The notes under the pieces are model-generated. The model did not search any database. It was not told the origin of the DNA and saw nothing but the letters and a program-made list of their open reading frames with translations. From the NCBI GenBank assembly GCA_025024175.1, contig QCXZ01000041.1, forward strand, positions 18,471,786 to 18,535,785: 64,000 nt of DNA, given 5' to 3'. The position numbers and the translations under genes were made by a program. This document shows positions 8,580 to 50,246 of the stretch, piece after piece (position 1 is the stretch's first letter; each line of letters starts with the position of its first letter). The stretch comes from Rhyzopertha dominica. Its lineage: Eukaryota > Arthropoda > Insecta > Coleoptera > Bostrichidae.

Positions 8580-8581
8580 TA

Positions 8582-10818
8582 CAGGGTGATTTTTTTGAAA
8601 ACTTCACACCTTAAATAACTTTAAATAGAGGAAAAATTTAAAATTTTGCAAAAACAGGTAAACTTTTGTTTACAGAGGGACAACTTTTGAGGTAAGTTTT
8701 TAATGGATAGCGCTTACCCTCTTAGCGGGGTAGATACCCCTTCAAAAATTTTAAATGAAACTACCCATCTTACGATACATCATTACACAAGGAGTCTTGC
8801 CATGTAATTAGTTTTACTATTTTTTACCCATTGACGGGGTAGTGGGTCAAAAAGTGCATTGTAGCAAGTGGCTTATAAAATGGAATATTTTGGACTTTTT
8901 TTAACAAAATTTATTGTCTTGCAGTTACAATAAAAATTGTCCTTACTTAAGCCTAAAAAAACTTGTTAAAAAATAATTGTTACACCTAAGCAAAATGCCA
9001 AAAATACTTAAAATTTTCTTTCGACATTACTTGATATTGCAACTCGACAGTTTATACTGAATTGGCTAAATAATTATCTACTTTGTGTTTCCAATTTTTT
9101 GTTTCAACTTTTTGGCTACTTCTTTGGCACGACCATCTTTTTGTTCACATTCCTTTTTATAAATCGCGTGAAATTTTAAAGTGAGAGTCCAAGTGATAAT
9201 AGTTTATTCAACTGCCGAAAGGGTAGAAATAATTTTTATTTACGGTGCTGAGCATAGCTGTGCTCGTGCGTCAGCAAGGGTGTTTAACGAACGGCACCCC
9301 GATAAAAATGTTGACGCTAGGTACATTCTCGATCTCGTGCAGAAATTTCAAGACACTGGATCTGTAGTACACAAAAAAGGGCAGGGAATAGAGTCGTTGA
9401 TGAAATGGCCCAACTTGAAGTACTTGGTCATTTTGCAATGGATCCAACTAGCTCTTTGCGTAACATTTCTACAGCCACAGGACTTTCTTATTCATCTGTA
9501 AGGAAAGTTACAAAACTGCACAAATTCCATCCCTATAAGATGAAAACTCTCCACGAACTCGGCGAAGATGACTTCGATAGAAGACTGCAATTTTGCGAAA
9601 TTATGACAGAANAGATTATAGTAAATCCAAATCTAATAAAAAATATCTGCTTCAGTGATGAATGCACATTTTTTTTGAACGGCTCTGTAAATAAACATAA
9701 CGTCAGGTACTGGAGTGACGAAAATCCTTATATTTTTCGAGGTCATACACAAGTTCCTCAGAAGCTGAACGTCTGGGCTGGAATACTTGGCAACGCAATT
9801 GTAGGTCCAATTTTCATTGATGGGACGCTAAATGGGGGAATGTATTTAGAATTACTTGATAACGTTATTGATCCTTTAATCACAGAGCAATTAGAAAACC
9901 AACGTCACCCTGAGGGAAATCCAATGTTGGATGAATACGAATTGTTTTACCAACATGATGGAGCCCCACCGCATTACGCCATTAATGTGCGAAATTGGTT
10001 AAATCATAGATTTCCTCTTCACTGGATTGGTAGGCGTGGAGCAATTGAATGGCCGCCACGATCACCCGATTTGACTGCTTTAGATTTCTTTTTATGGGGT
10101 CATTTAAAATCTGTGGTTTACAAAACACAACCTACTAGCCTGGACAATCTGCGAGAAAGAATTATTAACGAGTGCAGGAGGATTCCACCTGAAACTTTCC
10201 GAAAAGTGCAGCAGGAGTTCGAGAACCGTCTGTATTATTGTATGGAAAAAGGTGGTGCACATTTTGAGAATCTATTGTAAGGTTTGAATTTCTATGGTTT
10301 TGTTCACACTGTTTTTATTACAAATTACATGATAAATACTTTAATGTTAATAATAATGTTAAAAGAAAATTTTCAGTATCCTGGGAGTTTATTTTAAGTG
10401 TCATATTTTTACAAGTTGTTTGTTTAAATTTTGGGTTCTCGTAAGGACAAATTTTATTTCCGCTCTAAAATAAAATACATTTTGTTGAAAAGAGTCCAAA
10501 ATATTCAATTTAATAAGCAACCTTTTTCGTAGGCACTATTAATCTATTACCCCGTCAATAAGTTAAACGTGGTAAAACTAATTACATGCCCAGACTCTTT
10601 GTGAAATAAGCTTTCAAATGATGTATCACAAGATGGATAGTTCCATTTAAAATTTTTAAAGGGGTGTCTACCCTGCTCAGAGAGTAAGCGCTATCCATTA
10701 AAAACTTATCTCAAAAGTTGTCCCCCTGCAAACAAAAGTTTATCTGTTTTTGCAAATTTTTAAATTTTTGCTATATTTAAAGTTATTTAAGGTGTGAAGT
10801 TTTCAAAAAATCACCCTG
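8582..10818 (+). mobile_element. mariner-type element II with very long TIRs
   Basis: This 2237-bp element has TA on both sides (8580-8581 and 10819-10820). It begins CAGGGTGATTTTTTTGAAAA and ends with the near reverse complement, TTTTCAAAAAATCACCCTG. Reading inward from both ends, inverted similarity continues with small gaps for at least 360 bp and probably about 440 bp. It passes words such as GATAGCGCTTACCCTCT, GACGGGGTA, ATATTTTGGACT and AATTTTCTTT. Almost everything outside the transposase is therefore inverted repeat, far more than the roughly 30 bp typical of mariner. It carries one transposase with few lesions. It is inserted in a minus-strand Penelope-like remnant. Confidence 0.92.
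9181..10280 (+). pseudogene. mariner-type DDD transposase, one frameshift
   Basis: The first frame (9181 to about 9378) encodes a DUF4817-like helix-turn-helix (VEIIFIYGAEHSCARASARV). It opens with GTG where an ATG would be expected. At a run of six A at 9373-9378 the reading moves to another frame. From about 9384 that frame stays open to TAA at 10280 with a second helix-turn-helix (SLRNISTATGLSYSSVRKV, then HKFHPYK) and the catalytic core. Numbering from the ATG at 9405, the acidic residues are D85 in FSDEC, D185 in QHDGAPPHY and D222 in PPRSPDLTALDFF, giving 36 residues between the last two. The protein ends GGAHFENLL, as in this family. One ambiguous base lies at 9612. Apart from the single frame shift and the missing ATG it looks intact, so loss is recent or the shift is an assembly error. 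Confidence 0.85.
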
Positions 10819-10820
10819 TA

Positions 10821-11690
10821 TATAATTTGTAGTTACAATGTCTGTATCTTTATACTTATTAAATAGTTTTAGATGCTCATTTGTCCTACTAAGAAAAGAC
10901 CTTCCCATTTGTCTAATACAAACAGAGTGAATGATTTAAAACTGAAATTTTAGCTTTATTATGGACAAAACGGGAACATACACTGCCTACAGTTGAAATG
11001 GCAATATTTATGTCATTAGATGCAAATATTTTAGAAAGGTAAATTGAGATTTGAGCAATAAACATAAGGGGGCACCAAATTTTAACTTTTTTATCACATG
11101 TGATGGTGTTAAAAGAAAACTTAAATTTTGTCAGATATTTATAGTACAATTAACGTGAGGCGAGAAGACAGTATTTTTGAATATTTCTTTTTCTAAGCTA
11201 TTCATGAAAATTTCTGCTAAAAGTGGACTAAAGGGAAGAACCTATAGTTAAGCCTGACTTTAGTACAAAATATTTGTTATTGAAAAAGAAAAAAATTTGA
11301 TCTAATACAAACTTTGTTAAAGACATCAAATTATTTATATGTAATAATGATAAATTAGAATTTGAAGTAGTAGGCTATTTAAAATATTTAAATAGTCTTG
11401 TGCAGGAGTCGATGGAAATAAATTGTTCACATCAAAGAAAACAAGGAAAGAATCAGCTGGTATTTTAAAATTTTTAAGTTTATCAGTCAAATCTAAAGTA
11501 TTCTTAATAGCATAAGAGTTGTGAAAATTTAAAGCTTCACGTAGGACTAATTTTAACCATTTTGCTAATTTATAACATGGAGAATTTATATAAGATACAA
11601 CAAGTCTAATAGGACAGCCGTCTTTATGTATTTTAGGTAATCCATAGAGTCTTGGAGTCATTGGATTCATGGAATGAATTTGAGATTTAA
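10821..11690 (-). pseudogene. Penelope-like element remnant (RT and GIY-YIG)
   Basis: On the minus strand, 11335-11670 encodes a reverse transcriptase fragment of the Penelope type, with PRLYGLPKIHK, then IRLVVSYINSPCYKLAKWL and FLVFFDVNNLFPSTP, a good match to that family's core. Further 3' (10913-11149) is a closed-in linker resembling the region between RT and endonuclease. At about 10836-10920 the reading VCIRQMGRSFLSRTNEHLK matches the GIY-YIG endonuclease motif (usually YIGQTGRSF..R..EH), with the first tyrosine lost. The RT fingers and everything 5' of them are absent, and stops interrupt the frame. The 3' side is cut by the mariner element ending at 10818. Confidence 0.85.
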
Positions 11691-32932: not shown

Positions 32933-32945
32933 AAAGTTAGGTTAT
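32933..32945 (+). repeat. target-site duplication, left copy
   Basis: AAAGTTAGGTTAT, identical to 34193-34205 on the other side of the ribozyme-bearing insertion. Confidence 0.9.
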
Positions 32946-32966
32946 AATGCATGTCTATGCTGTGCT

Positions 32967-33046
32967 GTCTACACCTCAACCAACTGCAGATAGATCTATT
33001 TCGCTGTCATCACAGCTCATCAGTGCAGTTTAGGTCTAGTGTAGAC
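32967..33046 (-). ncRNA. hammerhead ribozyme, type I (inverted copy)
   Basis: The minus strand carries the same fold as the plus-strand copies. CTGATGA is at 33023-33017, a 5-bp stem II (GCTGT/ACAGC with loop GATG) and GAAA follow, then a 4-bp stem III with a 2-nt loop and the cleavage triplet ending UC. Predicted self-cleavage lies between 32989 and 32988. Stem I is closed by TGCAGT/ACTGCA next to the core and by GTCTACAC/GTGTAGAC further out, and the outer pairing can be prolonged. Confidence 0.9.
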
Positions 33047-33190
33047 AGCACGGCATAGAACTGGTTTTGCTTATATACCAAAGCAATGGTATGATGTGAG
33101 TAAGAAATTAGGATGGCAATGCCATCTGTCAGCAATGCACTGACATGATGGCAAAGCCACCTAGCTGCCATAACGGGTACTACTTCCTAA

Positions 33191-33266
33191 ACACTAGACC
33201 TAAACTGCACTGATGAGCTGTGATGACAGCGAAATAGATCTATCTGCAGTTGGTTGAGGTGTAGAC
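33191..33266 (+). ncRNA. hammerhead ribozyme, type I (copy 1)
   Basis: CTGATGA at 33210-33216, stem II GCTGT-GATG-ACAGC at 33217-33230, GAAA at 33231-33234, a short stem III (ATAG/CTAT counting the last A of GAAA) and predicted cleavage after C33244. The inner stem I (ACTGCA/TGCAGT) is present. The 5' half of the outer stem I (GTCT of GTCTACAC) is missing, because this copy begins at the inversion junction, so it may fold less well. Confidence 0.88.
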
Positions 33267-33538
33267 AGCACAGCATAGACATGCATTTTAATGTATGTCG
33301 GTTCTTGCCCGCTAGCAAAAAGTGCCGTGGGGACCTGCTGTCAAATTGAAGTATGCAGTTGCATGGCAATTTGTCAGGCTACAGGTCACTTCCTTTAGGA
33401 AGTAGTACCCGTTATGGCAGCTAGGTGGCTTTGCCATCATGTCAGTGCATTGCTGACAGATGGCATTGCCATCCTAATTTCTTACTCACATCATACCATT
33501 GCTTTGGTATATAAGCAAAACCAGTTCTATGCCGTGCT

Positions 33539-33618
33539 GTCTACACTAGACCTAAACTGCACTGATGAGCTGTGATGACAGCGAAATAGATCTATCTGCA
33601 GTTGGTTGAGGTGTAGAC
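33539..33618 (+). ncRNA. hammerhead ribozyme, type I (copy 2, complete)
   Basis: The complete version. The outer stem I is GTCTACAC (33539-33546) with GTGTAGAC (33611-33618), extendable outward (GTGCTGTCTACAC with GTGTAGACAGCAC is 13 perfect pairs). An internal loop includes a possible ACC/GGU helix. The inner stem I is ACTGCA/TGCAGT, the core CTGATGA is at 33562-33568, then stem II and GAAA. The predicted cleavage site is after C33596. All invariant core bases of the family are present. The internal loop of stem I opposite the stem II loop is where natural hammerheads make their activating contact. Confidence 0.93.
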
Positions 33619-33890
33619 AGCACAGCATAGACATGCATTTTAATGTATGTCGGTTCTTGCCCGCTAGCAAAAAGTGCCGTGGGGACCTGCTGTCAAATTG
33701 AAGTATGCAGTTGCATGGCAATTTGTCAGGCTACAGGTCACTTCCTTTAGGAAGTAGTACCCGTTATGGCAGCTAGGTGGCTTTGCCATCATGTCAGTGC
33801 ATTGCTGACAGATGGCATTGCCATCCTAATTTCTTACTCACATCATACCATTGCTTTGGTATATAAGCAAAACCAGTTCTATGCCGTGCT

Positions 33891-33971
33891 GTTCTACACT
33901 AGACCTAAACTGCACTGATGAGCTGTGATGACAGCGAAATAGATCTATCTGCAGTTGGTTGAGGTGTAGAC
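33891..33971 (+). ncRNA. hammerhead ribozyme, type I (copy 3)
   Basis: Same core as copy 2 (CTGATGA at 33915-33921, predicted cleavage after C33949). One extra T in the outer stem I (GTTCTACAC) leaves a single-base bulge. Confidence 0.92.
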
Positions 33972-34192
33972 AGCACAGCATAGACATGCATTTTAATGTA
34001 TGTCGGTTCTTGCCCGCTAGCAAAAAGTGCCGTGGGGACCTGCTGTCAAATTGAAGTATGCAGTTGCATGGCAATTTGTCAGGCTACAGGTCACTTCCTT
34101 TAGGAAGTAGTACCCGTTATGGCAGCTAGGTGGCTTTGCCATCATGTCAGTGCATTGCTGACAGATGGCATTGCCATCCTAATTTCTTACTC

Positions 34193-34205
34193 AAAGTTAG
34201 GTTAT
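34193..34205 (+). repeat. target-site duplication, right copy
   Basis: AAAGTTAGGTTAT, matching 32933-32945 exactly. Confidence 0.9.
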
Positions 34206-36003: not shown

Positions 36004-36116
36004 AGTGAAGAGAGAGGCTAGAAAGCGAAACCCTGCGATGAGGCTAGTTTGGTTTTCTACATCGCGCACTAGCCTCGTCGCAGGGTTTCGTTTTCTAGCC
36101 TCTCTCTCTTTAAAAC
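36004..36116. repeat. long near-perfect hairpin
   Basis: Arms of at least 41 bp pair with only two mismatches (GAGAGAGGCTAGAAAGCGAA and, on the other side, TTCGTTTTCTAGCCTCTCTC), around a loop of about 19 bp (36049-36067). Weaker pairing continues outward into TTAAAG/CTTTAA. The two open frames over it are mirror images and not genes. It may be the core of a foldback element. No target duplication was found. Confidence 0.9.
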
Positions 36117-38594: not shown

Positions 38595-40102
38595 TGTAAG
38601 ACATCTTATTTTTATTTGGTAAATAAATCACAATTAGATTTCGTATGAAGTATATCAGAAAAATAAAATATCGGCAAACACTCAATAATAATATGAATCA
38701 GCTCGAAAGACACGAACTTGCCTGCCTGGCCCAGATGTTGTGACCGACAATGGGGAAAACCAGGAGGGTGGTTTATTGCACCCGCGGTCAACAGTATTTC
38801 GACAAATTTGCAGCTCTAGAGGTATCAGTCTTTCCTCAGAAACAGTGCTAGACAAGCGGTGAATTCGTTGTGTGCAAGTGCTTTGTTCATTCAGTTCATT
38901 GCATCAGATATTGGGTGAGTTTTCTCACTGAGCATTTTTAGTCTAAGTATTGAGCTAGTATAATATTAGTAAAGCTTGCCGTTAAAATAATGCTGATGAA
39001 GCTATAATCAATTTTAATGATAAAGAATCGGTTTGGTTCAAGTTAATACAAAGATAAAGACGTTTTGCGTTATTGCATAAGTTGTATTTTGTCGATTACA
39101 TATTTGCAATCGTTGGAGATCATGGGCAAAGTAAAGCTGTTTGATTTGGTTATGAATACGAGTTTAAATTATGACAAATTAGTAGTAAAACCGAATTATT
39201 TAAGTAGAGTCGAGTCAGACTAAGTAAATTTGGGTTTTCTATGATTATTGTTGTTTTGTGATAGTCTGTATCTGGAGAGAGCATATCGCGCGTGGACTGA
39301 TTTAATATCTGATCCTATTTCCCTTTATGCTCATTGCACTTCTCAGTACAGGCGGGGACACTTTGTGTCTGACGGCAGGTATCTGGAGCGGGACTTATCG
39401 CGTGTGGTCGGATTTAATATCCGTTCCTATTTTCCCTTTAAGCCCATTGCACGACTCAGTATCTTGTCTTGTGAGTTGTAAGTGTTTGTAGCTGGAGAGA
39501 GCATATCGTGCGCGGACTGATTTAATATCTTTCCTGTTTCCCTTTATGCTCATTGCACTTCTCAATACAAACCGGGACATCGGGACGCCTTTGTCTGACG
39601 GCAGGTAGCTGGAGCGGGGCTTATCGCGTGTGGTCGGATTTAATATCCGTTCCTATTTTCCCTTTAGGCCCATTGCACGACTCAGTACCTTGTCTTTATG
39701 ATTTTGATGATCAAAAGAATCCCAATTTGCGCTTGTTATTTCTGTTGTTGCTTTAATTGATTTAATTGATGAAAATCCTAACGTAACCGTAATTGCTTAT
39801 TTACGAAATAGTATTCATTCTACGAATTACGATTTATTAGACAAAAGTGCTCACACTATTTTTTTCTTATCCGTAGGTAACTAACTTCAGAGATGCCATT
39901 CAGATCACCATCGCCGCCATCTTGACAAGAATTTAATATCTAGAGATAAGTCCAGTATTTGCTAGAGCAATATATTTTATATCTGACTAAATATGGATAT
40001 AGTTTATGGTTTGATTCGAATATCGTAATAAACATGATTTTGCCTTCAATTAATGATTACAGTTTATAATTTATTTATAATAAAAAAAAAATTCACCTTA
40101 TA
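38595..40102 (+). repeat. 5' LTR of the gypsy element
   Basis: 1508 bp, starting TGTAAG and ending CTTATA (imperfect terminal inversion, ending TA rather than the usual CA). Contains four diverged tandem units at 39271-39700. A GGTGAGT splice-donor-like site lies at 38914-38920. The only called difference from the 3' LTR is one T/C in the CGTTTTGCGT word near 39065. Confidence 0.95.
39271..39700 (+). repeat. tandem subrepeats inside the LTR (A-B-A'-B')
   Basis: Four units of about 109-117 bp start at 39271, 39382, 39491 and 39608, each beginning with CTGGAG and containing ATTTAATATC, TTCCCTTTA, CCATTGCAC or TCATTGCAC, and CTCA.TA. Units 1 and 3 resemble each other, as do 2 and 4, so an ancestral dimer was duplicated. 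The 3' LTR has the same set (second to fourth at 49522, 49631 and 49748), with the LINE inserted in the first. Confidence 0.88.
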
Positions 40103-40109
40103 TAATTTA

Positions 40110-40122
40110 TCAGAAGTGGGAT
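40110..40122 (+). other. probable primer-binding site, tRNA-Leu type
   Basis: TCAGAAGTGGGAT would pair with the 3' part of eukaryotic tRNA-Leu (…ATCCCACTTCTGA…, recalled consensus). It starts seven bases inside the LTR border and lacks the TGG that would pair with the CCA tail, so priming would begin inside the tRNA end or from a processed tRNA. Confidence 0.55.
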
Positions 40123-40266
40123 CTGTTATTCATGTGATATGGAGGTGAGGTGATCTGAACGGAAAAAAAAATATATACTAACAGTACTTGTACATTCGTT
40201 TTACACTGTTTGCACTGTTATATCTTTTTTTTTATTTATTCTATTAAGGGCCTGAATCAATTTAAA

Positions 40267-41178
40267 ATGGCGGGTAGAGGACAGAAAAGAAAACATGCGA
40301 CTAATGAGCGTTCACAGGACTTAGTTCCTGAAGCTAGTAGAAGCAGGAGTAGTAGTGGGAGTATAGCTAGCAATGATTCTGTGGATCGTTTGGCAAATAT
40401 CATGGCTAACTTTTTACAAAATGCGAAATCGCCTAGTGTAGGCACGGCTAAGGGTGATGTAGTTCCGGAATTTTATCCTGAAAAGAGGGAACAAAGTTCA
40501 GAAATCTGGCTGAATAAGGTTGACGAGTTACGGGAGGTTTTCAATTGGTCGGAAAGTACAACTATTTATTTTGCATTGTCCAAGTTAAAGGGATTGGCCG
40601 AGGTATGGTACAAAGGGCTTCAAACAATGAAATATACATGGGCTGAATGGAAGGTAAAGATTTTGGCTGCATTTCCATCTGCCCGAGATTATCATGAAGT
40701 GTTGTCAGAAATGATGCGACGTAAGAAGATGCCGCATGAAACTTATCAAAAATATTTTTATGAAAAATTAAGTCTTTTAAACCAGTGCAATATAACAGGT
40801 AAAGACGCAGTTTCTTGCATACTGGGTGATATTGACGATACGGTTGTTAAGGCCGCCGCGAAAGCTGGGAACTATTGTACTCCGGAAGACTTATTTCACT
40901 ATCTAAATACGTTACATGATTTGCGTCCAGTTAGTAATGGACCAAAGGCAAAATTTGTACAAAGGCCAAACGGACGTAATCGACCGTCTAGAACAGAAAA
41001 TTATCAAAAGGATAAATTTAAATGTTTCGGGTGCGGCAAAATGGGCCATGCTATTCGTGATTGCGAATTGCAGCGTAACCGATGTAACTACTGTAGAAAG
41101 CTTGGACATTTAGAGAACAACTGTTATCTCAAAAACAAGGAGAAAGCTAAATCTGGAGAAAAAAGAGCTGTTTTATGA
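40267..41178 (+). CDS. gag: Gag polyprotein
   Basis: 303 codons from an ATG in good context (AAAATGG); the frame is open upstream but without a better start. It forms the particle that packages element RNA. A basic N-terminus (AGRGQKRKHA) and serine-rich stretch precede a central capsid-like region with AEVWYKGLQTMKYTWAEWKV, typical of the gypsy Gag family. Two zinc knuckles of CX2CX4HX4C follow at residues 253-266 (CFGCGKMGHAIRDC) and 273-286 (CNYCRKLGHLENNC). The frame ends with UGA, and pol continues in the same frame immediately after it. No frame damage is seen. Confidence 0.93.
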   Translation: MAGRGQKRKHATNERSQDLVPEASRSRSSSGSIASNDSVDRLANIMANFLQNAKSPSVGTAKGDVVPEFYPEKREQSSEIWLNKVDELREVFNWSESTTIYFALSKLKGLAEVWYKGLQTMKYTWAEWKVKILAAFPSARDYHEVLSEMMRRKKMPHETYQKYFYEKLSLLNQCNITGKDAVSCILGDIDDTVVKAAAKAGNYCTPEDLFHYLNTLHDLRPVSNGPKAKFVQRPNGRNRPSRTENYQKDKFKCFGCGKMGHAIRDCELQRNRCNYCRKLGHLENNCYLKNKEKAKSGEKRAVL

Positions 41179-41182
41179 CTAG
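41176..41182 (+). promoter_or_regulatory. probable UGA readthrough site between gag and pol
   Basis: The gag stop is UGA followed by CUAG. UGA-CUA(G) is a context known to permit efficient ribosomal readthrough in animal and viral genes. Gag and pol are in the same frame with no other stop between. No ATG occurs in the pol frame until about 41458, inside the protease. Occasional decoding of UGA would therefore give a Gag-Pol fusion of 1479 residues. No strong downstream hairpin was seen. The alternative is a nonsense mutation in a formerly single frame. Confidence 0.7.
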
Positions 41183-44100
41183 ACGAAAAAAATGTTAATG
41201 TTACACCAAATCAAAAATATTTCAAGGACATTTTAATTAATGATAAACCATCTAGGGCTTATTTGGATTTTGGAAGTACAATAATAGCAATTAGGATTAG
41301 CGAAGTTACACGATTAGGATTAAGTATTGATGGCAATGACTGCGTATTAATTAAAGGATACGGCAATCAGACTAATTTAACTTTAGGTAAAACATTTTTT
41401 CATTTAAGTGTAGATAATGTGAAGGCAAAAGTCACAGCTAGTGTAGTAGATGATTCTATGCAAGATGTACCTGTTTTAATAGGACATCCTTTCACTGAAC
41501 TGCCAGGTGTACTAATTATCAAAGACGATAGGCAATTGTTAGTGGCCGAGGGAGATATCAACCAATTAGGAGACGTATTTCCTAAGCCAACTAAAGTAGT
41601 GTTGTGGGCAAAAACTGCCACGATGATTCCTAAAAATAACGTCGTAAATATTAAATTAGTATCAAAAGATAGCGAGTATACGGGGGACTTATTAGTTGAG
41701 GCTAGTTTAAGAACCAAGGAGGGAAATGAGTACTGCATTCCAAGGACTGTCATCAGAATTGCACCTAAGCAAGAAATAATATTGCCGATTATAAATCTCG
41801 CTGACTCTGATTTCATTATCGGAACCAAAAAACCTTTAGTCAGGGCGTTGCCTTGCGTGCAGGAAAATTTCTACGAAGAAGCCCGTGTGTTGCAAACAAA
41901 CGTCGCTGAACGCGCTTTATTGCCTCTAGAAGATATTAATGTGGGGCCCATATCAAACGAACATCGAGAAGCTCTTATTAAGCTCTTGCAAATGTATCGC
42001 GACTGTTTTTCCGAAAGCGCTACTGATGTCGGTTGTGCTAAGTCCGCCGAAATTGAAATAAGATTGGCTGATGATAAACCATTTACGTATAGACCTTATC
42101 GTATGTCGGTTAGTCGACAAGAGACCGTAAAGGAAATGGTCACTGAGATGTTAGGGAGTAATATTATTCGAGAATCGAATTCACCCTATTCGTCTCCAGT
42201 GTTATTGGTGAAAAAGAAGAATGGGGAAGAACGGATGTGTATAGACTATAGACGACTGAATGCTATGACAATAAAAGAACAACAACCTTTGCCACGAATC
42301 GACGATCAGTTGGACCGATTACACGGCAGCATTTTGTTTACGAGTCTCGATTTGCGATCAGGGTATTATCAAATTCCCGTTAAAGAAGATTCAAAGAAAT
42401 ATACGGCATTTGTCACGCCTGAAGGTCTTTATGAATTCAACCGTATGCCCTTTGGATTAACCAATGCTCCTATTCAAAGACTAATAAACAGGGTATTGTC
42501 CGTTGCAAAAGCATTTGCTGCTATATACTTGGACGATGTTTTGATTCATTCAAAGACTGTTGACGAAGCTTTAACTAATTTGGAAACTGTTTTACAACTC
42601 TTGCGGGAAGAAGGTTTAACTTTAAATCTTTCCAAATGTCATTTCTTACAGACCTCTGTTACGTATCTAGGATATGAAATATCGGATGGCAAAGTTGCAC
42701 CAGGTAATGTAAAAGTTAAGGCGATTGAAGAATTCCCAGCACCAAAATCAGTCCACAACATTCGGCAATTTCTAGGACTCACTGGCTATTTTCGGCACTT
42801 TGTCAAAGACTATGCTGCTATTGCAAAACCGTTAACCAATTTACTTAAGAAAAACATCAACTGGACATGGGGTGATGCTGAGCAGAAAGCATTCGAGAGT
42901 TTACGCCTGAGTTTAATGAGTAAACCTATTTTGGCTATTTTTGACCCAAAGGCAGACACCGAGGTCCACACAGATGCTAGTGCGCAAGGAATTGCGGGAA
43001 TTTTGCTTCAAAAGCAAACAGATGAACGTCTTCATCCTGTGGCTTATTATAGCAGGCAAACTAATAACGCCGAAAGCAAATACCACTCATTTGAGTTAGA
43101 GACATTAGCAGTCGTAGAAAGCCTAAAGAAATTTAGAGTATACCTGTTGGGTAAGCACTTTACTGTCGTAACTGATTGCAATGCACTAAAAGCATCCAGT
43201 ACGAAAAGAGATATTTTGCCAAGAATAGCTAGATGGTGGTTGCAATTGCAGGAGTACGACTTCGAAGTCCAATATCGACCGGGAAACAGGCTAAAACATG
43301 CAGATGCCCTAAGTAGAAATCCGTCGTCTAGCGAAACACCACCTGAGGAAATTCTTAGAATTGAACAGGGTGACTGGGTGTTGTCAGGCCAATTGACAGA
43401 CGATACTATAAAATTAATAAGAGAGGTTTTGTTAAAACCACCTGAAACCGATTATGACAAAACTGTTTATAAGAATTATGCCCTAAAGGACGGAAGAGTA
43501 TACAGAATTACTCCAAAGGGATTACTCTGGGTGATTCCCCGTGGCATGAGACATCAGATTGTTTCCATCGCACATGACCAAAAGGGACATTTTGGAGCGG
43601 AGAAAACGCTTAATAGACTTTGCGAGCATTATTGGTTTCCACGCATGCGAGAGTATGTTGAAAAATATATAGCGTGTTGCATACCGTGTTTGTTTAGCAA
43701 AAGACCTAGCGGCAAGAAGGAAGGGCTAATGCATCCAATTCAAAAAGTACCCGTACCATTACACATGCTACACGTAGATCATGTTGGACCTTTCCCAAGA
43801 AGTAAACGAGGTAATGTTCATTTACTGGTGATTGTCGATGCCTTCACAAAATTTGTATTCTTAAAACCGGTTAAGTCCACGAAAACTAAACTGGTTATTG
43901 ATTTCTTACAAGAAATATATAGTTATTATGGCCACCCGCACACAGTAGTAACTGACCAAGGAACTGCATTCACTTCAACGAAGTTTAAAGAATATTGTAA
44001 GGATTTTAGCATAAAGCATGTTCGTACAGCCGTAGCTACTCCTAGGGCCAATGGACAAGTCGAAAGACTCAATCGTACGATAAAGGGAGCATTGCTTGCC

Positions 44101-44706
44101 GCTACAAGCGACGAAAATCGTTGGGATGATCACGTTAAAGAAATCCAACTAACTATTAATACAACCGTTTCAAAAACGACGGGAAAAACACCAACTGAAT
44201 TATTTTATGGTTATAAGCCAAGGAGTGGTGCAGACATCCCTCTGCTTGATGAGATCAAAAATATTCCTAAAATACTCGAAGATTTACCGACGCTTCGAAG
44301 GGAAGTCGCAGAAAAAGTCACACGTGAGCAACTGAAACAAAAACATTACTTTGACCGGAAACGAAAGAAGCCCAAACAATATAAGGAAGGAGATATGGTA
44401 CTCATACAGAAGCAGGAATCATCCGAAGGTACAAGTCGAAAACTTGTACACCCTTATGCCGGTCCTATGATAGTAAAAGCCGTATTGCCAAATGATAGGT
44501 ATCTAGTAGCAGATATGCCGAACAATCACAGGAAGAAGAAAGCCACTAAGTACGAAAAGGTGATCGCCGTGGATAGAATGAAGCCATGGGTGATACCAGG
44601 AGGAGTGTCGGACGATACCAACAGCGATATAGAAGAACGAGCTGCTTTGGCAAATTTAGACCAGGAGCCTGAGGCTGAACAGTCCAAGCACCTCGGGGCG
44701 AGGTGA
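41179..44706 (+). CDS. pol: Pol polyprotein (PR-RT-RH-IN)
   Basis: 1175 codons with no ATG near the start, so expressed presumably as a Gag-Pol fusion. Residues are numbered from the TTG at 41263. Protease: LDFGST at 1-6, an unusual form of the DTG/DSG motif. Reverse transcriptase: VLLVKKKNGEERMCIDYRRL, first aspartate D363 in SLDLRSGYYQIPV, MPFGLTNAP ending at residue 403, and YLDD at 422-425. RNase H: D571 in HTDAS, ELETLAVVE, D638 in TDCNAL. Integrase: HHCC zinc region (HDQKGHFG…CCIPC), then D839, D898 and E934 (DD35E), and a C-terminal tail. After MPFGLTNAP the usual A-x-F-Q is shortened to IQ, a two-residue loss in RT motif B. No env follows, and the frame ends 18 bp before the 3' LTR. 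Confidence 0.95.
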   Translation, partial: LDEKNVNVTPNQKYFKDILINDKPSRAYLDFGSTIIAIRISEVTRLGLSIDGNDCVLIKGYGNQTNLTLGKTFFHLSVDNVKAKVTASVVDDSMQDVPVLIGHPFTELPGVLIIKDDRQLLVAEGDINQLGDVFPKPTKVVLWAKTATMIPKNNVVNIKLVSKDSEYTGDLLVEASLRTKEGNEYCIPRTVIRIAPKQEIILPIINLADSDFIIGTKKPLVRALPCVQENFYEEARVLQTNVAERALLPLEDINVGPISNEHREALIKLLQMYRDCFSESATDVGCAKSAEIEIRLADDKPFTYRPYRMSVSRQETVKEMVTEMLGSNIIRESNSPYSSPVLLVKKKNGEERMCIDYRRLNAMTIKEQQPLPRIDDQLDRLHGSILFTSLDLRSGYYQIPVKEDSKKYTAFVTPEGLYEFNRMPFGLTNAPIQRLINRVLSVAKAFAAIYLDDVLIHSKTVDEALTNLETVLQLLREEGLTLNLSKCHFLQTSVTYLGYEISDGKVAPGNVKVKAIEEFPAPKSVHNIRQFLGLTGYFRHFVKDYAAIAKPLTNLLKKNINWTWGDAEQKAFESLRLSLMSKPILAIFDPKADTEVHTDASAQGIAGILLQKQTDERLHPVAYYSRQTNNAESKYHSFELETLAVVESLKKFRVYLLGKHFTVVTDCNALKASSTKRDILPRIARWWLQLQEYDFEVQYRPGNRLKHADALSRNPSSSETPPEEILRIEQGDWVLSGQLTDDTIKLIREVLLKPPETDYDKTVYKNYALKDGRVYRITPKGLLWVIPRGMRHQIVSIAHDQKGHFGAEKTLNRLCEHYWFPRMREYVEKYIACCIPCLFSKRPSGKKEGLMHPIQKVPVPLHMLHVDHVGPFPRSKRGNVHLLVIVDAFTKFVFLKPVKSTKTKLVIDFLQEIYSYYGHPHTVVTDQGTAFTSTKFKEYCKDFSIKHVRTAVATPRANGQVERLNRTIKGALLAATSDENRWDDHVKEIQLTINTTVSKTTGKTPTELFYGYKPRSGADIPLLDEIKNIPKILEDLPTLRREVAEKVTREQLKQKHYFDRKRKKPKQYKEGDMVLIQKQESSEGTSRKLVHPYAGPMIVKAVLPNDRYLVADMPNNHRKKKATKYEKVIAVDRMKPWVIPGGVSDDTNSDIEERAALANLDQEPEAEQSKHLGAR

Positions 44707-44724
44707 ATCTTCAGGATGGCCGAA
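44695..44724 (+). other. 3' leader: weak purine tract and tRNA-Leu-like motif
   Basis: GGGGCGAGGTGAA (44695-44707) is the nearest purine-rich tract but lies 17 bp from the LTR. Next to the LTR is TCAGGATGGCCGA (44711-44723), which matches bases 2-14 of the recalled consensus of tRNA-Leu. Whether this serves second-strand priming or tRNA interaction is unknown. Confidence 0.4.
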
Positions 44725-45463
44725 TGTAAGACATCTTATTTTTATTTGGTAAATAAATCACAATTAGATTTCGTATGAAGTATATCAGAAAAATAAAATA
44801 TCGGCAAACACTCAATAATAATATGAATCAGCTCGAAAGACACGAACTTGCCTGCCTGGCCCAGATGTTGTGACCGACAATGGGGAAAACCAGGAGGGTG
44901 GTTTATTGCACCCGCGGTCAACAGTATTTCGACAAATTTGCAGCTCTAGAGGTATCAGTCTTTCCTCAGAAACAGTGCTAGACAAGCGGTGAATTCGTTG
45001 TGTGCAAGTGCTTTGTTCATTCAGTTCATTGCATCAGATATTGGGTGAGTTTTCTCACTGAGCATTTTTAGTCTAAGTATTGAGCTAGTATAATATTAGT
45101 AAAGCTTGCCGTTAAAATAATGCTGATGAAGCTATAATCAATTTTAATGATAAAGAATCGGTTTGGTTCAAGTTAATACAAAGATAAAGACGTTTCGCGT
45201 TATTGCATAAGTTGTATTTTGTCGATTACATATTTGCAATCGTTGGAGATCATGGGCAAAGTAAAGCTGTTTGATTTGGTTATGAATACGAGTTTAAATT
45301 ATGACAAATTAGTAGTAAAACCGAATTATTTAAGTAGAGTCGAGTCAGACTAAGTAAATTTGGGTTTTCTATGATTATTGTTGTTTTGTGATAGTCTGTA
45401 TCTGGAGAGAGCATATCGCGCGTGGACTGATTTAATATCTGATCCTATTTACATATATACAAA

Positions 45464-46402
45464 ATGGCCGACGATGAAGTTGGTGTGGTTAAATCTGATG
45501 CTAAAGCAAATTGCATATTTTGTAAAAGAGCTGCAATAACTAAGTTAGTTAAGTGTAGTGTGTGTGGTAAAGAACTACACAGATTCTGTTGTGAGTCCAG
45601 GGGCCTTCCTATCTCGGGTACAACAACAAAATGCTGCGAAGTAAGAACTAATGAGGAGGACAATGAAACATCCCAATTACAAAACACCGATATGCTGGTA
45701 ATGGAAATTAAATATCTGAAGGAAATAATCAAAGAAAAAGATAATATAATTAAGGATAAACTATCTATTATCGCAGATAAGGAATTTATTATCGAAATTC
45801 TAAAGAACAACAAATCTCCAGATGCACCATCTACTGGGAACAAAATGCAGCAAAACAAAATGGAATCTATAACGGTACCAACTGGTACCCAAAGATCCCT
45901 GTCACCAGCAAATAACGCTGTCAAAAAACCTAACCCTATAGCGACAGTATCAACAACGAACAAAATCACACTTCAGGAAGTAAGTGAAGCGTGTTTAAAT
46001 GCTGAAGCAAGCCTGAATTCCAATGAAAAAGTTGCGAACAAAAATACAAATGAGTCTTGGTCTACAGTTGCCGCTAAAAAACCCAGACCTAAAACTAACA
46101 CAATTGTAGGTACCCAAACGTCAACATCGAACCTGAAAGCGGTCCCCCGACAACGATTTGTTCATGTGTATAGGCTGTCACCTGAGACTACAGAAGAAAA
46201 AGTGAAGGAATTTGTAAAACCCAAGTGTCCTGAGGTGACTGTACAAAAAGTTAATTCTAAATACCCAAAGGAGTACTCTTCATTCAAAGTGGGTGTAAAT
46301 GTGGAAAATGAGGTAAAAGTCCTTGATCCAGATTTCTGGCCAGCAGGAGTGTGCGCAAGCAAATTTTTTCAGCGCCTTGCAGAGAGACAACCCGCCACTT
46401 AA
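45464..46402 (+). CDS. LINE ORF1 protein (PHD-like finger, coiled coil)
   Basis: 312 codons from an ATG in good context (CAAAATGG). Residues 16-60 form a zinc finger of the PHD type (CIFC, CSVCGKELHRFC, KCC). Residues of about 80-125 form a heptad-like helix (KYLKEIIKEKDNIIKDKLSI), probably a coiled coil for trimerisation. The C-terminal 80 residues (RFVHVYRLSPETTEEKVKEF, then VLDPDFWPAGVC) resemble the RNA-recognition-like domain of LINE ORF1 proteins. The role is to bind element RNA as a chaperone. The last 52 bp overlap ORF2 in another frame, so ORF2 translation depends on reinitiation or frameshifting. Confidence 0.9.
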   Translation: MADDEVGVVKSDAKANCIFCKRAAITKLVKCSVCGKELHRFCCESRGLPISGTTTKCCEVRTNEEDNETSQLQNTDMLVMEIKYLKEIIKEKDNIIKDKLSIIADKEFIIEILKNNKSPDAPSTGNKMQQNKMESITVPTGTQRSLSPANNAVKKPNPIATVSTTNKITLQEVSEACLNAEASLNSNEKVANKNTNESWSTVAAKKPRPKTNTIVGTQTSTSNLKAVPRQRFVHVYRLSPETTEEKVKEFVKPKCPEVTVQKVNSKYPKEYSSFKVGVNVENEVKVLDPDFWPAGVCASKFFQRLAERQPAT

Positions 46403-49254
46403 ACGCTTTGCATTGTGGTTACAAAGAGTGTAATGTAAATAAACAAGTTAACATAATTCATCAAAACCTTAGGTCAATAGGAAACAGTTTAGATAATTTA
46501 ATAGAAATAACATGTAATGAAAAAGAATGTATTGTTTTAGGTGTCACGGAGCATTGGAAAACAGAGGAGGAAATAGTTATGTATAAATTACCAGGATTTA
46601 AATTAATATCAAGTTATTGCAGAGATAGTAAACAGCATGGAGGATCGGCGGTTTATGTTAGAAATGATATAATTTCTAAAAATTTGACGGAGTTTGTTAA
46701 GATGTCTGAGAGATTCTGTGTGGAATGTTCTGCAGTTGAATGTAATGTCAACAATAAAAAATTTGTTATTCTATGTATTTATCGCCCCCCTGATGGCGAC
46801 ATTAAAATTTTTATAGAGAAAATTGACCGTATTTTATCACGTTTAATTCATCAGACAGTTTTTGTTGTAGGAGATTTTAATGTTCATTTTTTGGAAAATA
46901 ATGTTACAACTCATAAAGTATTATCCATTTTTAATTCATATGCAATGGAGCAGACAATCTTTGATTACACTAGGGTTCAGATTGTTAATGGTGGAGTTAT
47001 TAAATCATGCGTTGATAATATATTTACAAACGAAACTGACTGGCAGGCATGTGTTTTGGATACTATTATATCTGATCATAAGGCACAAAAAGTAAGTTTT
47101 CAATGTAGTTTTAAAAATAAAAATCCGAAGGTACAAATTAAACGATTTTATTCACAAGAAAATATACAACTTTTTAATACATACTTAAATAGTACTAATT
47201 GGAATAATCTTTATTGCATAAAAAATGAGGAAATAAATAAGCAGTGGGAGGAATTTCAAAACATATTTTTAAATAATTTTAATAGGTGTTTTCCAGAGAG
47301 AAGGTATTATCCCAGGAATAAAAATGCAGGTATAAGACAAAACCCGGTTGTAAATAAATGTAAATCTGAACTTGATTTGTTGTATGTAATAAGTCAATAT
47401 GACCCCGCTATTCAAACAATTTATAATGAAAAAAGAAAAGAATACAACAATATTTTAAGGGAAAATAGAGCAACAAGTTTTGAAAATGAAATAAGAAATA
47501 GTGATAATAAGGTAAAGTCTGTGTGGAAAATTGTTAACGAGTTGGTAGGATCCAAAAATAATAAAATAAATATGCATACAGGGCATAACCCAGAGGCTGT
47601 GGCGGAAGATTTTAATAAATACTTAATAAACTCGGTTAACAAGTTAGTTAAAAATAGTCAAACTTCAAATCAAACTTCTATTAGCATAAGTACCAAATCA
47701 ATATTTATTAGCCCAGTAACTGAAAGAGAAACTCTAAATATAATTAATGAATTGAAAAATAAGTCAAGCTGTGGTTTTGATGAGGTTCCTAGTAAAATTC
47801 TAAAGGTGAGTGCACTTGAAATAGTAAAACCATTAACATGGATAATCAATAATTCTTTCAAAGCTGGTTTGTTTCCTGAAGCATTGAAGCTGGCAATTGT
47901 TACGCCTGTATACAAAAAGGATGATTCTAAAAACATTGAAAATTTCAGGCCTATTAGCATATTGTCCGTTTTCTCAAAAGTGTTTGAAAAGTTAATGTGT
48001 AATCGTATAACCGAATTTATGATTAAATTTAAGCTTCTTTCAGAATTTCAGCATGGGTACCTGAAAGGACGATCCACACAGACAGCGGTCTTCCAATTTA
48101 TACAGCAGATCCACAGAGCCTTGGAGGAGAAGAATATACCACTTGGAATATTTCTAGATTTATCCAAGGCTTATGATACACTGAGTCATGAAGTTATTTT
48201 AAACAAATTATTTGCGTATGGGATCAGAGGAGGACCGCTGAACTGGTGTGCATCGTACCTCGCAAATAGAAGGCAAAAAGTCCGGGTTTCAGTAGAATCT
48301 AAAAGTTACTTTTCCGAAGAAATTACTTTAAATATGGGAATACCCCAGGGAAGTATTATGGGTCCGTTTCTTTTTGTTCTTTACATGAACGACTTATCAA
48401 ATATACTGGCTTCTAACAAGGAATATGTTATAAACTATGCTGATGATACCAGCTTATTGATTAAAGCACCAACATATAATAACTTAGTACAAAGAGCGAG
48501 TGAAACATTCATAAATAGCAACAATTGGTTTGACGACAATAAATTGATTCTAAATGCAGCTAAAACTAATTTAATTTTGTTCAGCACTAATTATAACAAT
48601 GTTTATCCACAAGAAATTTCACTAAACAGTATTACTTTTGAACTAACAAATGATACAAAATTTTTAGGGATTCAAATCGATAATAAATTAAACTGGTTAC
48701 CACATATCACATATATTTCAAAAAAACTGACATCTAGTGCGTATTCAATAAAAATACTGGCAACATATCTGAGCTCTGGTGTAGTGAACATTGTGTATCA
48801 CTCCAATTTTGAGTCAATATTGCGATATGGTATTGTATTTTGGGGTGCGAGTAGTGATGTAAATCGTTTATTTGTTATACAGAAGAGATGTTTGCGGTCC
48901 ATGTTAGGATTAAAGTACGGTCAATCTTGCAGAGGAAAATTTAAGTCAGTAAATATGTTTACAATACATGCTCTATATATATATGAGTGTTTAGTGTTTA
49001 TTTTTAAACATAAACAAATATTTGTGCCCGCTTTACCAACAACCAAGTATTCTATAAGAAATTTCAATTACACATTGCCAATTCACAGACTTTCTCAGAC
49101 GGAAAACAGTACCTATTATAAATGCATGTTATTTTTTAATAAACTGCCGAACTCTATAAAAATTGAAAAACATTTTAACAAATATAAATCATTAATAAAG
49201 CAATTGTTATTAAATCTGGAGCCGTATAGCATAGAAGAATATGTGAATATGTGA
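46351..49254 (+). CDS. LINE ORF2 protein (APE endonuclease and RT)
   Basis: 967 codons from the first ATG of the frame, inside the end of ORF1. The APE-type endonuclease nicks target DNA: HQNLRS at 38-43, TEHW at 66-69, IYRPP at 143-147, GDFN at 174-177 and SDHK at 241-244. The reverse transcriptase spans about 510-760: AIVTPVYKKDD, FRPISILSVFSKVFEKL, FLDLSKAYDTLSH (first aspartate), GIPQGSIMGPFLFVLYMNDL and YADD at 696-699. The C-terminal region ends EPYSIEEYVNM, as in related LINEs. No stop or frame shift is seen, so the protein may be active. Confidence 0.95.
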   Translation: MRKQIFSAPCRETTRHLNALHCGYKECNVNKQVNIIHQNLRSIGNSLDNLIEITCNEKECIVLGVTEHWKTEEEIVMYKLPGFKLISSYCRDSKQHGGSAVYVRNDIISKNLTEFVKMSERFCVECSAVECNVNNKKFVILCIYRPPDGDIKIFIEKIDRILSRLIHQTVFVVGDFNVHFLENNVTTHKVLSIFNSYAMEQTIFDYTRVQIVNGGVIKSCVDNIFTNETDWQACVLDTIISDHKAQKVSFQCSFKNKNPKVQIKRFYSQENIQLFNTYLNSTNWNNLYCIKNEEINKQWEEFQNIFLNNFNRCFPERRYYPRNKNAGIRQNPVVNKCKSELDLLYVISQYDPAIQTIYNEKRKEYNNILRENRATSFENEIRNSDNKVKSVWKIVNELVGSKNNKINMHTGHNPEAVAEDFNKYLINSVNKLVKNSQTSNQTSISISTKSIFISPVTERETLNIINELKNKSSCGFDEVPSKILKVSALEIVKPLTWIINNSFKAGLFPEALKLAIVTPVYKKDDSKNIENFRPISILSVFSKVFEKLMCNRITEFMIKFKLLSEFQHGYLKGRSTQTAVFQFIQQIHRALEEKNIPLGIFLDLSKAYDTLSHEVILNKLFAYGIRGGPLNWCASYLANRRQKVRVSVESKSYFSEEITLNMGIPQGSIMGPFLFVLYMNDLSNILASNKEYVINYADDTSLLIKAPTYNNLVQRASETFINSNNWFDDNKLILNAAKTNLILFSTNYNNVYPQEISLNSITFELTNDTKFLGIQIDNKLNWLPHITYISKKLTSSAYSIKILATYLSSGVVNIVYHSNFESILRYGIVFWGASSDVNRLFVIQKRCLRSMLGLKYGQSCRGKFKSVNMFTIHALYIYECLVFIFKHKQIFVPALPTTKYSIRNFNYTLPIHRLSQTENSTYYKCMLFFNKLPNSIKIEKHFNKYKSLIKQLLLNLEPYSIEEYVNM

Positions 49255-49427
49255 ATATGTAAAGCTGTTGTTTTCTGCAACGTTCTGATACTTGTCTGAT
49301 TACACTAACGATTGTATTTTATATTTATCTAATTATTAATTCCTCTTTTTTTCATATATGCATTGTGACGTTTGTTTCCACCTATTTACCATGTTTGTAT
49401 CTTACAACTATGTGTTATTATTTGGAA

Positions 49428-49455
49428 AATAAAGATATATTATTATTATTATTAT
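49428..49455 (+). terminator. LINE polyadenylation signal and TTA tail
   Basis: AATAAA at 49428-49433, then a tail of TTA/ATT units running into the TATTT target duplication. Confidence 0.85.
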
Positions 49456-50246
49456 TATTTCCCTTTATGCTCATTGCACTTCTCAGTACAGGCGGGGACA
49501 CTTTGTGTCTGACGGCAGGTATCTGGAGCGGGACTTATCGCGTGTGGTCGGATTTAATATCCGTTCCTATTTTCCCTTTAAGCCCATTGCACGACTCAGT
49601 ATCTTGTCTTGTGAGTTGTAAGTGTTTGTAGCTGGAGAGAGCATATCGTGCGCGGACTGATTTAATATCTTTCCTGTTTCCCTTTATGCTCATTGCACTT
49701 CTCAATACAAANCGGGACATCGGGACGCCTTTGTCTGACGGCAGGTAGCTGGAGCGGGGCTTATCGCGTGTGGTCGGATTTAATATCCGTTCCTATTTTC
49801 CCTTTAGGCCCATTGCACGACTCAGTACCTTGTCTTTATGATTTTGATGATCAAAAGAATCCCAATTTGCGCTTGTTATTTCTGTTGTTGCTTTAATTGA
49901 TTTAATTGATGAAAATCCTAACGTAACCGTAATTGCTTATTTACGAAATAGTATTCATTCTACGAATTACGATTTATTAGACAAAAGTGCTCACACTATT
50001 TTTTTCTTATCCGTAGGTAACTAACTTCAGAGATGCCATTCAGATCACCATCGCCGCCATCTTGACAAGAATTTAATATCTAGAGATAAGTCCAGTATTT
50101 GCTAGAGCAATATATTTTATATCTGACTAAATATGGATATAGTTTATGGTTTGATTCGAATATCGTAATAAACATGATTTTGCCTTCAATTAATGATTAC
50201 AGTTTATAATTTATTTATAATAAAAAAAAAATTCACCTTATAAAAG

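Follow-up and report, generated by a model that had tools for sequence, protein, structure and literature searches.

Which enzyme moves the small, ribozyme-bearing retrozymes of animals is a question raised by a single insertion in the window, by which we mean the whole 64,000-nucleotide stretch of Rhyzopertha dominica DNA analysed here. Metazoan non-LTR retrozymes were defined by Cervera and de la Pena in 2020 (PMC7229834), in a paper whose available text mentions insects once. Penelope-like elements (PLEs) have been put forward as the likely movers on the basis of shared ribozymes, tandem layout and co-occurrence (PMC7229834, PMC7761336, as far as their available text goes); in the same portions PMC7229834 leaves the mobilising element open, and a 2024 review (PMC11722881, available text) again names LINE or PLE as the candidates. 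In the window, positions 32946–34192 form one 1247-bp insertion composed solely of copies of one 352-bp unit. A first-pass annotation placed its boundaries correctly to about a base and described four identical hammerhead cores, one per 352–353-bp unit; absent from it were a 13-bp target-site duplication (TSD), the inversion of the first copy and a head-to-head arrangement that gives a lead on the mobilising enzyme. The insertion consists of 246 bp in inverted orientation followed by direct units of 352, 353 and 297 bp, so that 2.8 direct units stand head-to-head with the inverted one, and it is flanked on both sides by the exact direct repeat (13/13 identical), a match that two given places would reach by chance with a probability of about 5e-8. 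Its parts are the following.

32933–32945, no strand: left target-site duplication AAAGTTAGGTTAT, a 13/13 direct repeat exactly at the element ends
32946–33191, minus strand: A-arm, a partial unit in inverted orientation whose outer end falls at unit position 43–47 (site A), identical to the direct array as its reverse complement (246/246)
33191–34192, plus strand: B-arm, a direct array made up of a 352-bp, a 353-bp and a 297-bp unit, which ends on its outer side at unit position 243 (site B)
33388–33403, plus strand: hairpin ACTTCCTTTAGGAAGT (ACTTCC/GGAAGT), which folds and is repeated at 33740 and 34093
34193–34205, no strand: right target-site duplication AAAGTTAGGTTAT, the same exact 13-bp repeat

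Four cores are indeed present, but the claim of one per 352–353-bp unit has to be dropped because one of them sits, on the minus strand, in the inverted 246-bp partial unit. Units 1 and 2 are identical at 352/352 positions except for one extra T, units 2 and 3 at 297/297, and the absence of substitutions in 1247 bp sets a 95% bound of about 0.24% on divergence since insertion. Since the unit copies carry no substitutions and the TSD is exact, a recent insertion is supported by the sequence. The same age had been read from the identity of the cores; the conclusion stands while that argument falls, because older copies also conserve their cores. The inner end of the inverted arm falls in the loop of the ACTTCC/GGAAGT hairpin of the unit. 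The insertion has a GC content of 45% versus 35% for the window, and no open reading frame of 110 or more amino acids lies within 32946–34192. The TSD at 32933–32945 also contains TTAGGTTA, a piece of the insect telomere repeat; as the other TSDs tabulated for family copies do not show it, its presence is probably due to chance.

All four cores have the form CTGATGA–GCTGT/ACAGC–GAAA, each with a UC cleavage site and paired stem I strands. The spaced core pattern occurs at five sites in the window, four of them in the insertion, where 0.06 are expected in shuffles, and a motif scan recovered the four cores of the insertion plus a single weak site in the rest of the window, with one site in total from 20 shuffles; by these counts the cores are not a product of chance or low complexity. 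In a covariance-model search, suggested in the first-pass annotation, Rfam Hammerhead_HH9 matches all four cores, at 25.6 bits and hence below its gathering score of 52 (E-values of 0.0049 in a 7-kb and 0.045 in a 64-kb search).

32969–33039, minus strand: type I hammerhead, minus-strand copy (HH9, 25.6 bits), predicted cleavage after the C at 32989
33194–33264, plus strand: hammerhead ribozyme 1 (HH9, motif scan), predicted cleavage after 33244
33526–33632, plus strand: extended stem I around ribozyme 2, with an outer helix of 21 pairs and one C/A mismatch
33546–33616, plus strand: hammerhead ribozyme 2 (HH9, motif scan), predicted cleavage after 33596
33899–33969, plus strand: hammerhead ribozyme 3 (HH9, motif scan), predicted cleavage after 33949

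The ribozyme of the unit is made up of CTGATGA, a 5-bp stem II with a GAUG loop, GAAA, a palindrome and the UC site, and its inner stem I of 7 bp runs on into the long outer helix; topology, core and fold are those of a type I hammerhead with an open stem I and an intact core. The 107-nt ribozyme region folds at −55.9 kcal/mol versus −27.7 kcal/mol for shuffles (sd 3.5, z −8.1), and the predicted catalytic fold, at −52.3 kcal/mol, lies 3.6 kcal/mol above the minimum. The 10-nt palindrome AUAGAUCUAU may form a 3-bp stem III with a GAUC loop or, alternatively, a 10-bp duplex between two molecules (−9.8 kcal/mol), and is predicted to be unfolded when alone.

These features agree with the description of the insertion as retrozyme-like and, given the type I hammerhead and the missing reading frame, as a non-autonomous, ribozyme-bearing element. 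According to the available text of PMC7229834, metazoan non-LTR retrozymes carry type I hammerheads with a short stem III in noncoding tandem units of 170–400 bp with a GC content below 50%, have TSDs longer than 4 bp and coexist with PLEs; here the unit is of 352 bp at 45% GC, the TSD measures 13 bp and the genome yields at least 144 matches to the GIY-YIG endonuclease. Plant LTR retrozymes are likewise noncoding, ribozyme-bearing and thought to move via circular RNA, but they differ in having type III ribozymes, LTRs, a PBS and a PPT, circles of 600–800 nt and 4-bp TSDs, and they are thought to use Gypsy enzymes (PMC7229834, available text); the type I ribozyme and 13-bp TSD place the present element outside that group. 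The W-elements of Schistosoma resemble it in being satellite-like, with some type I hammerheads and indications of TSDs and inner inverted repeats, although the accessible part of PMC8490949 describes neither a fixed end pair nor a link to PLE insertion. Another tandem repeat of insects, pDo500 of Dolichopoda cave crickets, has a hammerhead that is active and shows compensatory changes; the available text of PMC2837043 describes it as a satellite and reports no insertion anatomy. By its features, then, the element is a new family of the retrozyme kind, to which the insertion rule set out below is the addition.

To define this rule we used the further copies in the genome. The genome-wide search with the 352-bp unit that had been proposed in the first pass yielded 3128 candidate places in the 479-Mb assembly, of which the best 40 were scored; the matches were grouped into 40 loci and 39 of these were read. 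Two more copies came from 30 PLE loci and another three, older or extra, from within the fetched loci, bringing the set to 44; old copies are under-sampled in it because copies were chosen as best matches. Left out of the counts were L003–L009, which duplicate either the window copy or fetched loci, L058, which is the same element as L057, and copies with fewer than 150 aligned bases; copies below 90% identity were excluded from the variation and arm comparisons, and from L017 and L027, in which chaining left internal gaps, only the outer ends were used. At a further place (G000 C137:38075136–38078868) some ten retrozyme units stand in one array, which exceeds the copies read in length.

With unit positions counted from the ribozyme cleavage site, site A (about +47, mostly 44–52) takes 40 of the 73 outer ends and site B (about +242, mostly 240–247) takes 30, while the other three lie at 261, 311 and 195, the last being a locus end. 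The windows used for A (38–56) and B (236–254) were set after the ends had been seen and together cover 38 of the 352 positions. The 5 nt on either side of the ribozyme cut hold none of the 73 outer ends, and the inner ends are scattered across the whole unit. Head-to-head copies account for 29 of the 44 and one-armed copies for 15. In 26 of the 29 head-to-head copies one arm ends at A and the other at B, with no A/A and no B/B case; two of the others have one end at neither site (L019, an older copy, and L077) and one, L065, is truncated by the end of its locus. If the 52 ends of the 26 A/B copies are dealt at random, all pairs come out mixed with a permutation P of 1.4e-7. The left end is an A-end in 17 of the 29 copies and a B-end in 10. 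One-armed copies have an A-end in 13 of 15 cases, two of them in copies of 72% and 84% identity, and site A therefore appears to be old. At the join the two arms overlap by 1–9 bp in 24 of the 29 head-to-head copies, and exact direct repeats of at least 9 bp flank 22 of 28 copies in own flank pairs versus 5 of 756 cross pairs. What sets this family apart from the account in the available text of PMC7229834 is that two internal sites hold 70 of the 73 outer ends and that 29 of the 44 copies are head-to-head; the words "inverted", "inversion", "twin" and "head-to-head" are absent from the main text of that paper, and a literature search, made largely without subscription papers, found no description of a one-A-one-B rule for retrozymes.

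We then asked how the two arms of a copy relate to each other. In the 15 copies with enough overlap, 125 of 5925 positions (2.1%) differ between units of one arm and 200 of 7738 (2.6%) between arms, which is no clear difference (Wilcoxon p 0.86). Seven copies are young, as defined by less than 0.5% difference among their own units. One of them, the window copy, shows 0/600 differences between arms and 0/900 within, and is 4.4–5.0% away from the other six, which mutually differ by 0.3–2.0%; three of those six have 3/1461 differences between arms. Since the arms of one copy agree while young copies differ, both arms were, by these comparisons, copied from one RNA sequence. RNA editing as a source of the between-unit differences found no support, C>T and G>A leading the changes and A>G not being in excess. 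With a circular template, the identity of the arms and the reading across the ribozyme junction are both well explained. Identical arms would also be expected if a uniform array had been transcribed into one long RNA that stayed uncut, and the spread of inner ends fits circle and long transcript alike.

It is possible, though we would not count on it, that the template was a multimeric transcript left linear and uncut, and that mobility does not need the ribozyme, a variant that is compatible with mobilisation by a PLE and alters only the circular step. Besides the lack of outer ends at the ribozyme cut, it draws on a PLE that in vitro inserts unprocessed RNA and whose ribozyme mutants still insert (PMC11167929, available text). 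It is opposed by the pattern of variation in the family: counted with one vote per copy in 41 copies of more than 90% identity, the core varies at 0.4%, the inner stems at 0.8% and the rest of the unit at 2.1% (core and inner stems versus rest, p 0.0012), with outer stem I at 2.1%, equal to the rest, and unit positions 331–352, which contain the stem II loop, at 3.0%. The lower variation of the core and inner stems argues that the ribozyme matters to the element. Core, stem II, the closing A-U pair and the cleavage-site C are jointly intact in 73 of 103 family ribozymes, which are not mutually independent. Compensatory stem changes in other copies, which the first-pass annotation had looked to, exist but are few: four stem pairs among the 103 ribozymes have changes on both sides that keep the pairing, and two of the four, in inner stem I and stem III, stem from one old copy (L016:6301).

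The genome appears to hold hammerheads beyond those of the retrozyme, because a genome search with Hammerhead_1 gave at least 25 matches, 22 of them over the gathering score (best 74 of 57767 candidates scored), and these are scattered off the retrozyme copies; none of the matches listed lies at a copy listed from the unit search. Outside the genome, neither the exact 25-mer of the core nor a looser form of it was found in viral_contigs, and a 25-mer match in a Clostridia MAG (genome_contigs) was set aside as chance, having by eye no matching stem I or cleavage site.

The genome is also rich in PLEs. Of its GIY-YIG matches (at least 144, from the best 150 of 2080 candidates scored) we read 30 loci, and 22 of these belong to one dominant PLE family whose copies are mostly 95–99% identical. 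The copy at L048 has a 600-aa frame with PLE-type reverse transcriptase (RT) and endonuclease motifs by eye. Among the relatives listed the closest is 97% identical and bears GIY-YIG, many of the 120 bear RVT_1, and the named organisms are insects such as Coccinella septempunctata. Pfam and NCBIfam gave no match on this frame, and a PDB search returned weak, unrelated-looking matches only (E 0.067 or worse); we identify it as a PLE because of the GIY-YIG match at the locus and its homologues with RVT_1 or GIY-YIG. The 3' ends of the PLE copies, counted by hand in L051 coordinates, fall at 2050–2054 in 14 cases and at 2086–2089 in 13, that is, at two sites 36 nt apart, and L052 ends early at 1785. 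All eight head-to-head PLE copies with both ends in view have one arm at each end site (permutation P about 0.02, 2^8/C(16,8), by hand), and seven of the eight have an exact TSD of 10–14 bp; these counts are without L051, which served as the end-search query, the L043/L051 pair, and the arms of L038 and L050 that are cut by locus ends. The 36-nt stretch between the ends is the tail known from PLEs.

Because the A/B end rule of the retrozyme recurs in the dominant PLE of the same genome, a PLE enzyme suggests itself as the copier. We consider it probable that the element is a metazoan-type non-LTR retrozyme moved in trans by a PLE RT-endonuclease that is primed once from each cut strand. Known PLEs offer the parallels: in the available text of PMC11167929, the purified anole PLE (Poseidon of Anolis) cuts and extends both target strands and starts reverse transcription internally at two sites, the stretch between which is the genomic tail, and in that of PMC3846280 rotifer Penelope has inverted pLTRs with a tail optional on one of them and TSDs of 8–10 bp where seen. 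The retrozyme thus shares with PLEs, as far as these two sources describe them, the head-to-head inverted arms, the TSD (about 8–14 bp in PLEs), the tail on one arm and internal RT starts, and with the anole PLE a hammerhead close to where RT starts. It does not qualify as a PLE, because no ORF of at least 110 aa, and so no RT or endonuclease frame, is present. In the window one trace of a PLE lies outside the element, as a bystander:

11335–11670, minus strand: Penelope-like RT ORF fragment, 38% identity over 88 aa to the L048 PLE frame

This fragment reaches E 4e-19 in a single comparison with the L048 frame and has no Pfam match of its own. In two of the 30 PLE loci (L049:2605–2756 and L054:2088–2517) a retrozyme copy and the endonuclease region of the PLE are no more than about 1 kb apart.

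We regard it as unlikely that the insertion instead arose by deletion from a PLE family of this genome that bears hammerheads, as a non-autonomous pLTR array rather than a retrozyme with a sequence of its own. Its anatomy is the same as that of a PLE, pseudo-LTRs of PLEs bear minimal type I hammerheads in tandem (PMC7761336, available text), and loci of other PLE families here hold CUGANGA...GAAA motifs. Yet the unit has no similarity to the 30 GIY-YIG loci read of at least 144 matches, apart from the retrozyme insertions in two, and its ribozyme can form, in the predicted fold, a 3-bp stem III with a tetraloop, unlike the minimal PLE hammerhead, which the available text of PMC7761336 describes without helix III or loop-loop contacts. 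In the dominant PLE family we found no CUGANGA...GAAA motif at a common place; a hairpin followed by GAAAC is present in 17 of the 30 loci, and the single pattern matches in L034, L051, L052, L053 and L057 have positions unshared between dominant-PLE copies. Motifs like the minimal PLE hammerhead occur in L032, L036 and L040, which are non-dominant GIY-YIG loci, and Rfam gave no match on these.

A LINE as the mover, acting by target-primed reverse transcription with twin priming to give a 5' inversion, looks improbable. Twin priming by LINEs fits TSDs of 9–16 bp and 5' inversions with short join overlaps, so that the TSD lengths, inversions and overlaps seen here are compatible with it, and a LINE with an RT ORF is present in the window. 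It is opposed by the start of both cDNAs at fixed internal sites, one at each where both are seen there, and by the dominant PLE obeying the same end rule. The LINE in question (45464–49254, two ORFs) is nested in a young Gypsy element at 38595–50245, with a first LTR at 38595–40105, pol at 41263–44706 and an ORF at 40210–41178 that has CCHC motifs by eye and no Pfam match; it splits the second LTR into 44725–45458 and 49456–50245 (99.5–99.7% identical), and the 13-bp overlap between these pieces is consistent with target duplication by a LINE. The nearest named relative of the Gypsy protein is from Tenebrio molitor (67%); together with the insect relatives of the PLE frame it supports the first-pass inference of an insect element. 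Inside the Gypsy LTR, at 39267–39696, there is a 226-bp tandem duplication (1.9 copies, 89%). Elsewhere in the window we noted a Tc/mariner-like element at 8580–10820, with long imperfect terminal inverted repeats of about 475 bp (78%) that enclose a 291-aa ORF weakly matching HTH_Tnp_Tc3_2 below the Pfam cut-off, and a long inverted-repeat hairpin at 36004–36112 that looks like a small foldback element; this hairpin draws sub-threshold matches to the microRNA and FasX models of Rfam at 36 kb, which are unrelated to the retrozyme. Ordinary satellite DNA expanded by unequal exchange, with the inversion as a mere rearrangement, is scarcely credible, since although the units are tandem and number about ten at one other place, it is contradicted by the TSDs and fixed ends that recur at dozens of places dispersed in the genome.

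Mobilisation by a PLE enzyme has evidence to face as well. The distance from A to B is 195 nt in the retrozyme versus 36 in the dominant PLE of this genome and 30–40 in PLEs generally, as described in the portions of the sources available; the unit and the dominant PLE share no sequence over the 30 PLE loci; and the start site is other than B in 13 of the 15 one-armed copies. For the anole PLE in vitro, the available text of PMC11167929 reports start sites that are the same on both strands and insertion that did not require the ribozyme.

Under the PLE-driven insertion that we favour, the hammerhead would be expected to cut the noncoding 352-nt unit RNA that contains it, this RNA would then be ligated to a circle, and the PLE RT with its GIY-YIG endonuclease would take this retrozyme RNA as a foreign template. 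The endonuclease would cut both target strands about 9–16 bp apart, and the cut strands would both prime antisense cDNA on that RNA, with the start at A (about +47) for one strand and at B (about +242) for the other, the RT being able to pass the uncut ribozyme junction several times. Joining of the two cDNAs, mostly over 1–9 matching bases, would then leave a head-to-head A-arm and B-arm within a TSD. We infer cleavage, circularity, the action of the PLE protein in trans and the order of these steps from the genomic copies.

More generally, we lean towards the view that animal retrozymes are SINEs of Penelope elements, in which a small, probably circular RNA offers a dimer of the PLE RT-endonuclease two start sites, each protomer priming from one cut strand, with both arms made from the same circle. 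If so, the one-A-one-B rule would be the genomic footprint of a two-start, both-strand insertion, and this footprint would be readable in any animal genome with retrozymes. The A/B signature thus bears on which autonomous element moves animal retrozymes: the two-site ends provide a sequence signature linking retrozymes to PLE enzymes and indicate the unit positions at which such an enzyme, once purified, would be expected to initiate. For the biology of PLEs themselves, they imply that in vivo both target strands are primed, at two different sites of one RNA.
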